Part shown: one piece after another, positions 44,960 through 48,240 of the stretch
Layout of the letters: each line of letters opens with the position of its first letter
Position numbering within the stretch: position 1 is the stretch's first letter
Source: Pseudoflavitalea sp. G-6-1-2
GTDB taxonomy: Bacteria; Bacteroidota; Bacteroidia; Chitinophagales; Chitinophagaceae
Assembly: GCF_012927185.1 (NCBI RefSeq)
Contig: NZ_JABBGB010000001.1
Location: 1,116,001 to 1,180,000 of the forward strand
DNA: 64,000 bases
Direction: 5' to 3'
Notes under the pieces: model-generated
What the model was told of the DNA's origin: nothing
Database searches by the model: none
The model's input: the letters and a program-made list of their open reading frames with translations, nothing else
Program-made: the position numbers and the translations under genes

Positions 44960-46774
44960 TCAGTTTTTTCTTCTTGTAAGCACCACTCCCTGTTTCCATT
45001 TTCCCGTTGCTCCGTTCGAATTGAACCAGCTTGCCAGAATAATGTAGATCCCCGAAGGCAGTGCCAGCTTTGATTCGCTGAGGCCGTCCCAGCTGAAACT
45101 TCCTGAAATTCCGGTCAACGCATTTGCTGCAAGCATTCTGATGGGGTTTCCATCGAGGTCAAAAACCTGAACAGTGCAAACAACTCCTGTTGTGTTCATA
45201 TTGTATTGGATATGCAACACATCATCGATGCCATCGAGATCTGGGGAGAAAGATTTTGATGAAAGACTGAACTGTGCCTGAATTGACCCAAGTGATCTGT
45301 ATTGAGAGTTGATGTATCCCGGTGTGCCACCCCCTGCGGTAGTTGCAGCCGACATGAAATTGTTTTTAGTGCCGGGTTGCAATGGATCGATGCGTTCCAG
45401 CGAAATGCCTTCCGCTGATTGCAGCAACGAAAAATGCCAGCCAATATCATAATTTATTTCATCGATTATTTTTCCTTGTGAATTACTCAACACCAGCGAA
45501 CCATTTTCATTTGGAAGAGATGGCAGTGAATTAACTGCAAGAACTGCGCTGCGATCTTTCAATACATATTTGCTGCCCAGCCATTCTGGTATGGAACAGA
45601 TGGCGAGGTAGTCGCCAGGAAACAGCAAAAAAGGAAAGTGGGTTGCAGGTTTTGAATTGATTAAAACCTGCGCACTGTTTCTGTTGCTGAAGTAAAGTTT
45701 GCTGAGGTCGATGATCTTTTTGCTGGTGTTGAACAATTCTACATAATCATCTCCTTCGGGTGGAGGATCTGCCAGCAATTCATTGATAACGATATCTCCG
45801 GCAGCCGCGGAAGAAGCTCTGCCTGCTTTTGCGTTGTTGAGCATGCCAACAGTATTCCCTATGCAATCTTTCAGTTCTTTTACGATGAGTTTGTAAACAG
45901 TTTGCTCCTGCATAGCTGCGGGTAATCTGATCTGCACTTCATTGAAAAGTGGCGGAACTGCATTGCAGAATGCTGGTGCCTGCTGCATGCCATCCAGCCT
46001 GAAACCCACTGGTGATGCAGCACTGGCGCTGTCAACGGGTTCGTCGAAAACAGCCATGAGGTGCAGGCTATCTGTAGCATAGGTTCGAAGAAGTGCAGGT
46101 GGAAGCTCGTCCTTTGCCGTTGCGTTAACGCTGTTGATGCGGCCCGGAGTGCCTCCTGCTTCGTCATTGCTGGCCGTCCAGTTACTTTGCCCGGCGCAGT
46201 ATTGAAATGGACTGATCATTTCAAGGCTCCACCCTCCCGATGATTTGATGGTGTTTCTGTACCAGCTCGAATGCCAGCTGATTGCATGGATGATATTTCC
46301 TTGCGGCGAGATCAGTTGCACAATGCCACTTTCGTTTCCGAATGAAGGCCAATTGGAGAGCCCGATTGTTTTTCCATACCGCTGCAAATAGGGCGCTGCT
46401 GTATTGGAGCAGCAGATAAGAAAGCTGTCGGGTTTAAGGATAGTAGACTTTGAGAAATTCGCAGATCCGTTTTCATCAGCGAGTTTGCAGCCGATGAGGT
46501 CCAGCGCTTTTCCTGAAATGTTTTTCAATTCGATGTACTCGTATTCCGGAAGGCCCTTTGGTGGCGAAGGATCAGCCATAATCTCGGTAATGATGAGCTG
46601 ATAGCGGCTGATAGCATTTACGGCAATATTTGCGGATGCCGGTATGGAGAAAAGCATCGCCATCATTATTCCTGTTAAGAAATGAATAACGCGCTTATGC
46701 GCTTTCGGGTAACGCCCATCATCTTTATACCAATGGCTGCTGGTATTTTCCAGAGAAGGTTTTCTTTCTTTCAT
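44960..46774 (-). CDS. Exported lamin-tail-domain protein with gliding-motility-type C-terminus
   Basis: 604 aa. A long N-terminal region leads into a hydrophobic segment (LTGIMMAMLFSIPASANI), probably a signal peptide with an extended n-region. Two lamin-tail domains follow: IITEIMADPSPPKGLPEYEYIELKN (about 60-195) and IVINELLADPPPEGDDYVELFNTS (about 330-480), separated by a beta-sandwich with PPALLRTYATDSLHLMAVFDEPVD. The C-terminus SFSPDLDGIDDVLHIQ, then VFDLDGNPI, WDGLSES, PSGIYIILA, is a type B (gliding-motility-associated) type IX secretion signal. It is presumably a cell-surface or secreted structural protein. A later start at about residue 37 is possible. Confidence 0.82.
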   Translation of the reverse strand: MKERKPSLENTSSHWYKDDGRYPKAHKRVIHFLTGIMMAMLFSIPASANIAVNAISRYQLIITEIMADPSPPKGLPEYEYIELKNISGKALDLIGCKLADENGSANFSKSTILKPDSFLICCSNTAAPYLQRYGKTIGLSNWPSFGNESGIVQLISPQGNIIHAISWHSSWYRNTIKSSGGWSLEMISPFQYCAGQSNWTASNDEAGGTPGRINSVNATAKDELPPALLRTYATDSLHLMAVFDEPVDSASAASPVGFRLDGMQQAPAFCNAVPPLFNEVQIRLPAAMQEQTVYKLIVKELKDCIGNTVGMLNNAKAGRASSAAAGDIVINELLADPPPEGDDYVELFNTSKKIIDLSKLYFSNRNSAQVLINSKPATHFPFLLFPGDYLAICSIPEWLGSKYVLKDRSAVLAVNSLPSLPNENGSLVLSNSQGKIIDEINYDIGWHFSLLQSAEGISLERIDPLQPGTKNNFMSAATTAGGGTPGYINSQYRSLGSIQAQFSLSSKSFSPDLDGIDDVLHIQYNMNTTGVVCTVQVFDLDGNPIRMLAANALTGISGSFSWDGLSESKLALPSGIYIILASWFNSNGATGKWKQGVVLTRRKN

Positions 46775-47021: not shown

Positions 47022-47052
47022 TTTGGCACACAGATATTGCGTACTATTTTTG
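47022..47052 (+). promoter_or_regulatory. Predicted promoter of the asd leader, Bacteroidota consensus
   Basis: TTTG (47022-47025), 19-base spacer, TATTTTTG (47045-47052): an exact match to TTTG-N19-TAnnTTTG. The predicted start is about 47058-47060, leaving a leader of roughly 175 bases before the asd ATG. Confidence 0.7.
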
Positions 47053-47059
47053 GTACCAG

Positions 47060-47122
47060 ATGTCAAAAATGATGAAACATACAAAGCGTACGAAGAAGCG
47101 TCCCACAAACGGGAAGGTTTAG
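47060..47122 (+). CDS. Predicted asd leader peptide, Lys/Thr/Met-rich
   Basis: A 20-codon frame ending in TAG; ATG codons at 47060, 47069 and 47072 allow 20, 17 or 16 residues. The longest form is MSKMMKHTKRTKKRPTNGKV: 6 Lys, 3 Thr and 3 Met out of 20, all end products of the aspartate pathway whose second enzyme is encoded by asd downstream. It begins at or just after the predicted transcription start and ends 35 bases before the terminator stem. It is proposed as a cis-acting ribosome-stalling peptide, not a functional protein. The evidence is composition and architecture only. Confidence 0.6.
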   Translation: MSKMMKHTKRTKKRPTNGKV

Positions 47123-47184
47123 GATAGTTTTGTATGTCAAACATAAAATATCAAAAGGCCTTCCCACACGGGGAGGCTTTTTTT
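47101..47184 (+). promoter_or_regulatory. Attenuator: antiterminator and terminator stems upstream of asd
   Basis: Four segments are visible. Segment 1 TCCC (47101-47104) can pair with segment 2 GGGA (47111-47114) inside the leader frame. Segment 2 GGGAAGG (47111-47117) is exactly complementary to segment 3 CCTTCCC (47159-47165). Segment 3 as GCCTTCCC (47158-47165) pairs with segment 4 GGGGAGGC (47170-47177) around an ACAC loop, followed by seven T (47178-47184): a rho-independent terminator. Pairing 2:3 excludes 3:4. The terminator lies 49 bases before the asd start, within its 5' leader, so termination there would prevent asd expression. Confidence 0.65.
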
Positions 47185-47232
47185 ATTAAACTAATTTTTA
47201 ATACTGATCACTTAAAACAATCACTTATAACA

Positions 47233-48240
47233 ATGAAAGTTGCAGTTGTAGGCGCCACTGGTCTGGTAGGCACCAAAATGTTACAGATCCTCTCAGAAAG
47301 GAATTTTCCCGTTACTGAACTCCTTCCAGTTGCTTCAGAAAGATCAATCGGTAAAGAAGTATTCTATAAGGGTAAGGGATACAAGGTGGTTAGCATGACG
47401 GACGCTATCGCTGCAAAACCTGATGTAGCCTTGTTTTCAGCGGGTGGCAGCACTTCACTGGAATGGGCTCCCAAATTTGCTGAAGCAGGTATCACTGTTA
47501 TCGACAATTCATCTGCATGGCGTATGGATCCTTCCAAAAAACTGGTGGTTCCTGAAATCAATGCAGATGCACTGGGAAAAGATGATAAGATCATCGCAAA
47601 CCCCAACTGTTCTACCATTCAGATGGTGGTGGCACTCAATCCGCTGCACAAAAAATATCAGGTGAAACGTGTGGTGGTATCAACTTACCAGAGTGTTACA
47701 GGTACCGGCAAAAAAGCGGTTGACCAGCTGATGGGTGAGCGCGATAAAGCCGTGAAAGGCAGCAATGGCGAATATCCCATGGCGTACAAATATCCAATCG
47801 ACCTGAACGTGATTCCTCAGATCGATGTGTTTCTCGACAATGGTTATACCAAAGAAGAGATGAAGATGGTACTCGAAACCAAGAAGATCATGCGCGATGA
47901 AACCATCCGTGTTACTTCTACTACGGTTCGTATACCTGTAATGGGCGGCCACAGCGAAAGCGTGAACGTGGAGTTCGAAAGCGACTTCGATCTCAACGAA
48001 GTGAAAGCGTTGCTGAAAGCTGCTCCTGGTGTGGTATTGGTGGATGATCCTGCAGCACAGGAATATCCAATGCCTAAAGATGCGCATGAGCGCGATGAGG
48101 TGTTTGTAGGAAGATTGCGCAGGGATGAAACCCAGCCCAATACCCTCAATATGTGGATCGTGAGCGATAACCTGCGTAAAGGCGCTGCTACCAATGCGGT
48201 TCAGATTGCTGAGTATCTGGTGAGCAAACAACTGTTGTAA
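47233..48240 (+). CDS. asd: Aspartate-semialdehyde dehydrogenase
   Basis: 335 aa from ATG 47233 (MKVAVVGATGLVG). The NADP-binding GATGLVG is at residues 7-13; the catalytic Cys lies in NPNCSTIQMV, the substrate-binding Gln and Arg regions in YQSVTGTGKKAVDQL and TTVRIPVMGGHSESVN (catalytic His). The enzyme makes aspartate semialdehyde, the branch point to lysine/diaminopimelate, threonine, methionine and isoleucine. The frame is open upstream to 47134, but that part spans a terminator hairpin and is not coding. Expression is probably controlled by the attenuator-like leader. Monocistronic with its own terminator. Confidence 0.95.
   Translation: MKVAVVGATGLVGTKMLQILSERNFPVTELLPVASERSIGKEVFYKGKGYKVVSMTDAIAAKPDVALFSAGGSTSLEWAPKFAEAGITVIDNSSAWRMDPSKKLVVPEINADALGKDDKIIANPNCSTIQMVVALNPLHKKYQVKRVVVSTYQSVTGTGKKAVDQLMGERDKAVKGSNGEYPMAYKYPIDLNVIPQIDVFLDNGYTKEEMKMVLETKKIMRDETIRVTSTTVRIPVMGGHSESVNVEFESDFDLNEVKALLKAAPGVVLVDDPAAQEYPMPKDAHERDEVFVGRLRRDETQPNTLNMWIVSDNLRKGAATNAVQIAEYLVSKQLL

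Follow-up and report, generated by a model that had tools for sequence, protein, structure and literature searches.

In Escherichia coli, the thrL leader combines a codon-rich peptide with alternative antiterminator and terminator structures upstream of an aspartate-family gene, the codons being those for threonine and isoleucine and the gene thrA. Lysine genes are controlled by the L-box riboswitch (RF00168) and by repressors. The L-box acts on lysine-pathway genes via premature termination, just as an attenuator does, but binds lysine directly and involves no peptide. A leader with the general features of thrL that is instead rich in lysine codons and precedes asd is present in the window, i.e. 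the whole 64,000-nucleotide stretch of DNA from Pseudoflavitalea sp. G-6-1-2 (Chitinophagaceae) that was analysed here. It does not reach the gathering score of Thr_leader (RF00506; 19.1 bits versus 55) or of Bacteroid-trp (RF01692; 23.7 bits versus 49), which according to its Rfam description is likewise a peptide leader RNA of Bacteroidota but is concerned with tryptophan. The His leader peptides known from proteobacteria and from bacilli also feature a regulatory codon run followed by competing hairpins, but differ from the window leader in amino acid and sequence family. An attenuation survey published in 2010 by Lopatovskaya and others may list Bacteroidota leaders. The initial annotation knew of no earlier description of such a leader on asd in this phylum, and a lysine-reading leader peptide was likewise found neither in searches of open full-text papers nor in Rfam. 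The survey is cited in PMC4833913. The authors of PMC2965389, which reports the His leader peptide case in bacilli, state that they knew of no leader-peptide systems demonstrated outside Proteobacteria and Actinobacteria. The mechanism is an old and classical one; what appears to be new is the amino acid, along with the RNA family and the set of genes.

All features of the leader are located on the plus strand. A candidate promoter, TTTG-N19-TATTTTTG, occupies positions 47022-47052 (TTTG 47022-47025, TATTTTTG 47045-47052), and we take it to belong to the -33/-7 promoter type of Bacteroidota. Seven bases past the -7 box starts a frame of 20 codons (47060-47122) for the predicted leader peptide MSKMMKHTKRTKKRPTNGKV, with six Lys, three Thr and three Met among its 20 residues. 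The core codons AAA CAT ACA AAG CGT ACG AAG AAG (K H T K R T K K; 47075-47098) are the proposed stall sites; the last two of them (47093-47098) are not part of any helix found and lie 12 bases away from segment 2. Segment 1, TCCC (47101-47104), pairs with 47111-47114 in the computed leader fold. Segment 2, GGGAAGG (47111-47117), constitutes the 5' arm of the antiterminator and is exactly complementary to segment 3, CCTTCCC (47159-47165), the partner of which is either segment 2 or segment 4. The latter, GGGGAGGC (47170-47177), is followed by seven T (47178-47184) and forms with them the 3' arm of an intrinsic terminator (47170-47184). The stop codon TAG starts at 47120 and is separated from segment 2 by two bases. 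Promoter, frame composition, segments and stop codon had all been pointed out in the initial annotation and were recovered on re-reading; what had been overlooked, apart from a second copy upstream of dapA (see below), is a perfect helix of 9 bp, A:A'. Its 5' arm (A, 47077-47085) is embedded in the Lys/Thr codons and its 3' arm (A', 47129-47137) follows the stop codon, both arms being recognized by complementarity and covariation. A:A' crosses the antiterminator 2:3, and short of a pseudoknot only one of them can form at a time. The folding energy of the window leader lies 6.3 sd below that of 200 dinucleotide shuffles.

The gene downstream, asd (47233-48240, plus strand), encodes an aspartate-semialdehyde dehydrogenase of 335 aa that scores above the cut-offs of both NF011456 (458 bits) and TIGR01296 (441 bits). 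A start at 47134, given in the mechanical ORF list, was rejected because Asd relatives align from 47233. The in-frame ATG at 47134 would furnish Asd with 33 extra residues read through the terminator (47134-47232) and is likely to be a trap for gene callers.

Conservation, covariation, the constraint on Lys codons and the presence of sister copies on lysine genes lead us to consider it very likely that the element works by ribosome-mediated transcription attenuation and reads the supply of lysyl-tRNA; the same lines of evidence bear out the attenuator of usual geometry originally proposed for asd. Transcription would start just 5' of 47060 and a ribosome would enter the 20-codon frame. When lysine is plentiful, the ribosome would reach the stop codon and mask segment 2, and the 3:4 terminator would form. 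When lysine is short, it would stall at the AAA/AAG codons between 47075 and 47098 and thereby melt or mask A and segment 1, leaving segment 2 free to join segment 3 while segment 4 has yet to be synthesized, and asd would be transcribed. Judged by the length of a ribosome footprint, which underlies these estimates of coverage, a ribosome whose A site is occupied by AAG 47096 would mask segment 1 and hardly segment 2. Among the leaders compared, the stop codon is located either just 3' or just 5' of segment 2, and both positions appear near enough for a terminating ribosome to mask this segment. Without a stall, A:A' and 1:2 probably retain segment 2. In silico, antiterminator and intrinsic terminator are mutually exclusive, and the terminator is the structure that remains when a ribosome is placed at the stop codon of the window leader. 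At equilibrium the window leader favours the terminator even with segment 2 free, and switching must therefore be under kinetic control, like that of known attenuators. In the ribosome-free window leader that still lacks segment 4, the minimum free energy structure contains 2:3 rather than A:A', so that the outcome for an untranslated leader is uncertain.

Asd was detected in 114 of the 117 Chitinophagaceae genomes sampled, and 110 upstream regions were studied; G046, which is a fragment, and G111, G011 and G005, the weakest three of the full-length matches, were left aside. A first rule requiring segment-2-like, segment-3-like and T-run motifs identified a leader in 73 of the 110. Seven badly aligned ones were dropped, and the other 66 yielded the MAFFT alignment A1 and the covariance model R1. 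With R1, a sense-strand leader is found upstream of asd in 75 of the 110 regions, and the remaining 35 lack a sense-strand match. Each of the 75 asd leaders carries a short frame that has both a start and a stop codon and includes three or more Lys codons, and a start-to-stop frame is present in all 86 leaders, asd and non-asd, when frames are picked for most Lys. The promoter motif recurs as well: TANNTTYG occurs within about 50 bases 5' of the frame in 71/75 asd leaders (mean of 4.9 in single-base shuffled sequences), and the full TTKG-N17-23-TANNTTYG in 59/75 versus 0.2 in such shuffles. The comparison of relatives' asd upstream regions suggested in the initial annotation thus yields a Lys-rich frame in the majority of them, together with compensatory changes in 2:3 and 3:4.

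The family appears to set the limits of this distribution. Among the matches listed, the best 80 named Asd loci include 24 with a sense-strand R1 match, some of the 80 records probably being duplicates of genomes in the family sample; Niastella yeongjuensis, Limnovirga soli, Sediminibacterium roseum, a Filimonas and two Flavihumibacter belong to these 24. Mucilaginibacter, Pedobacter, Dyadobacter, Hymenobacter, Spirosoma and flavobacterial loci among the best 80 listed gave no leader match; for L236, L239 and L259 of the 80, less than 240 bases upstream make this a weak test. Asd was detected in 99 genomes outside the Chitinophagaceae, and none of the 21 loci studied from other families of the same order has the leader before asd. 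When 395 genomes of the phylum were searched, all eleven with a match better than 1e-5 belonged to the Chitinophagaceae, and eight further ones had matches at 6e-5 to 7e-4. R1 E-values are rough, six of the nine matches outside the family at E<=1e-3 being chance-like; L170, L171, L173, L175, L176 and L177, all outside the family, were judged to be chance terminators.

The pairings proposed for the leader are supported by several structure tests. For the 2:3 duplex, the mean over 86 leaders is -17.4 kcal/mol versus -10.2 kcal/mol with shuffled segment 2, and for 72 of them no more than 10 of 200 shuffles pair as well. Selection of the 66 training leaders relied on motifs resembling segment 2, segment 3 and the T-run, and their 2:3 and 3:4 pairings are therefore partly selected. 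The eleven non-asd leaders, ten of which pass the same comparison, form the fairer test of 2:3, albeit found via R1, the sequence of which itself resembles these motifs. Variants of the duplex comprise GGAAGG:CCTTCC, GAGAAG:CTTCTC, GGAAAGG:CCTTTCC and GGTAGGC:GCTTACC, pairs like the last one being present in lysA, aspartokinase and aminotransferase leaders. When folding is restricted to the sequence delimited by segments 2 and 3, 2:3 (at least five pairs) is part of the minimum free energy structure of 85/86 leaders. The helix A:A' averages -9.35 versus -5.65 upon shuffling and is individually clear (equalled by no more than 5 of 100 shuffles) in just 48 of the 86 leaders. In alignment A3, a set of 31 rows including His and Thr leaders that was fitted to the structure under test and leans towards it, both-side changes occur in 8/9 pairs of A:A' (81% of cells paired) and in 9/9 pairs of terminator 3:4 (98.9% paired); the whole structure is 90% paired versus 37-59% when slid, and A:A' and 3:4 jointly beat every one of 500 shuffles as well as the six slid controls. 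When RNAalifold was applied to the plain MAFFT alignment A1, in which A' is displaced between rows, the terminator alone was recovered.

The window leader matches one other site in its own genome, C3:326491-326637, which is 70% identical and combines a similar promoter, the frame MQNIQKHTKQVKTISIQREG ending in a stop codon and a terminator; it is followed by dapA (TIGR00674, above cut-off). Genome-wide, R1 gave 89 matches at E<=1e-3 in the 117 Chitinophagaceae genomes, 75 of them directly 5' of asd on the same strand. The other 14 precede dapA (seven), lysA (two), aspartokinase (one) and, with His-rich peptides, hisG (two) or are due to chance (two). Of the 23 matches outside the training set, 19 stand before lysine-pathway genes. 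The dapA assignment is above cut-off in six of seven loci and relies in the seventh on a start of 110 residues; for lysA, L155 is above cut-off and L153 covers only the start of the gene, while the aspartokinase at L151 (421 residues) exceeds the TIGR00657 cut-off. Three further genomes have the leader before an aminotransferase-aspartokinase pair (L159, R1 E-value 0.003; L294 and L298, found with the broader model R2). The aminotransferase is aspartate aminotransferase-like and stays under the cut-off of every model listed. The start of the same-strand gene that follows matches aspartokinases in L294 and L298; in L159 its start of 114 residues has no match at a strict threshold and was assigned to aspartokinase by eye. 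Where gene identities had been read by eye, those loci that were re-tested with whole or partial proteins agreed. R2 provided at least 22 new matches with E-values down to 2.0e-4, 20 of which were inspected (G078:C395, at a contig end, and G046:C521 were left out). At E<=0.1, R2 has no match at two aspartokinase loci, the bifunctional locus and lysA of the window's own genome. The R1 matches L154, L156, L157, L158 and L163 were judged to be chance terminators. At L305 (211-327), a Lys-rich leader with the frame MNSVIVLKIKKNKLFRKGRPV and a stop codon is located 5' of an acetyltransferase-like gene, and the following kilobase is devoid of a lysine gene.

All seven genomes with a dapA leader also contain the asd leader, while it is absent from all seven with a Lys-rich leader on another gene (p 0.0002, ignoring relatedness); the latter have more divergent Asd proteins, and one of them, G079, offers only 268 bases upstream. 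Tentatively, one may picture a family of lysine-reading attenuators, the target of which has moved between genera, being asd with or without dapA in some and lysA, aspartokinase or the aminotransferase-aspartokinase pair in others, with Thr added in the asd version alone, such that two end products would be integrated at the branch point.

According to the initial annotation, charged tRNAs for Lys, Thr and Met together set asd expression. Lys is indeed the constant element in every gene context. Of the 1285 residues that follow the start codons of the 75 asd peptides, 326 are Lys (25.4%); the two alternative frames contain 7% and 9%, and base composition would predict 13%. Lys accounts for 23.5% in the seven dapA leaders and for 24.6% in the group of four that precede lysA, aspartokinase or aminotransferase genes. 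Within the core, codons 4, 7 and 8 specify Lys in 69, 68 and 60 of the 75 asd leaders, respectively, and both AAA and AAG occur at each of the conserved positions. As codons 7 and 8 are outside the helices found, pairing does not account for their conservation. Methionine, which is not conserved, was rejected as a signal; not counting the start codon, asd peptides contain a mean of 0.79 Met and dapA peptides one of 0.43. Threonine falls in between: it is found at core codon 3 in 58 and at core codon 6 in 39 of the 75 asd leaders, where all four codons are used (ACC 13, ACG 11, ACA 9, ACT 6), but at codon 6 in none of the seven dapA leaders, which were read by eye (Fisher p 0.013, a value that ignores relatedness of the rows and is thus optimistic). 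It is therefore conceivable, if rather doubtful, that the asd leader is a dual sensor of threonine and lysine at the branch point shared by the aspartate-family pathways. Codon 3, however, pairs within helix A and may be kept for pairing; leaders of dapA and lysA have no reason to read threonine and nevertheless keep Lys and some Thr; the gene for the bifunctional aspartokinase in the window's own genome carries a separate Thr/Ile-rich frame; and Met is not conserved. With Lys codons in all gene contexts, Met unconserved and Thr variable, lysine is the likely signal as judged from the sequences, and threonine at most an addition at asd. If this is true, lysine joins the amino acids read by attenuators, and Chitinophagaceae, without a detectable lysine riboswitch, may sense it in this way at the first shared steps of the pathway. 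The covariance model R1 can be used for further searching.

A functional small basic protein encoded by the short frame, with the hairpin simply being the terminator of this small gene, would fit the good conservation of KHTKRTKK among asd leaders and the promoter motif that the frame has of its own. We consider it quite improbable, since leader peptides before dapA, lysA, aspartokinase and aminotransferase differ in sequence yet keep Lys, hisG leaders of the same architecture encode His runs, the 2:3 pairing exhibits both-side changes and the stop codon may lie on either side of segment 2. About as improbable is a metabolite riboswitch, a T-box or a constitutive terminator in which the Lys-rich frame is incidental to an A-rich leader. 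The frames do contain 45% A, but Lys is about twice as frequent as expected from base composition and about three times as frequent as in the other frames. None of the Rfam 15 families attains its gathering score in the window (best: Phe_leader, 28.3 bits, cut-off 55), and the same holds true for 12 leader loci except for an unrelated tRNA. The lysine riboswitch RF00168 was found in none of the 117 Chitinophagaceae genomes, the window's own included, under stricter filters, while the control search was positive in four of 14 named genomes, namely E. coli, B. subtilis, T. maritima and L. lactis. That the hairpin, an intrinsic terminator by anatomy, serves the upstream gene is very improbable in view of the long upstream frame (44960-46774) lying on the strand opposite to the leader, the leader's own promoter motif and the conserved pairing of segment 3 to segment 2.

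The lysine-reading attenuator that we favour for asd is accompanied by other attenuator-like leaders. His-rich peptides are encoded directly 5' of hisG in at least 21 Chitinophagaceae genomes, among them that of the window, where L161 (228-342; C3:909127-909241) has the same architecture with the stop-terminated, His-rich frame MLQNTHIHHHHTYREVGQ before hisG. Assignment of hisG was by model in L150, L161 (the start of which is just under the cut-off), L292 and L310 and by eye in the others. Also in the window's own genome (L311), a GTG-started frame, STATTTTITITTTR plus stop codon, contains a Thr/Ile run and extends from about 170 to 90 bases 5' of the start, at C3:100273, of an aspartokinase gene, the product of which is a bifunctional aspartokinase/homoserine dehydrogenase (NF006959, above cut-off). 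Read by eye and without a match to R2, this frame is apparently a Thr/Ile leader. A Trp-rich frame, MINTQNIWWWNSLKR with its stop codon, and a terminator precede a trpE-like gene at L181, a locus with no match in the Rfam gathering scan. Lys-, His-, Thr/Ile- and Trp-rich leaders make ribosome-mediated attenuation look common, and perhaps widespread, in the phylum. In two other families of the class, short Thr/Ile-rich frames and terminators are located 5' of bifunctional-type aspartokinase genes (L172 and L174, each at 1501-1616). At L310, a gene of 135 codons is inserted between the His-rich leader and hisG.
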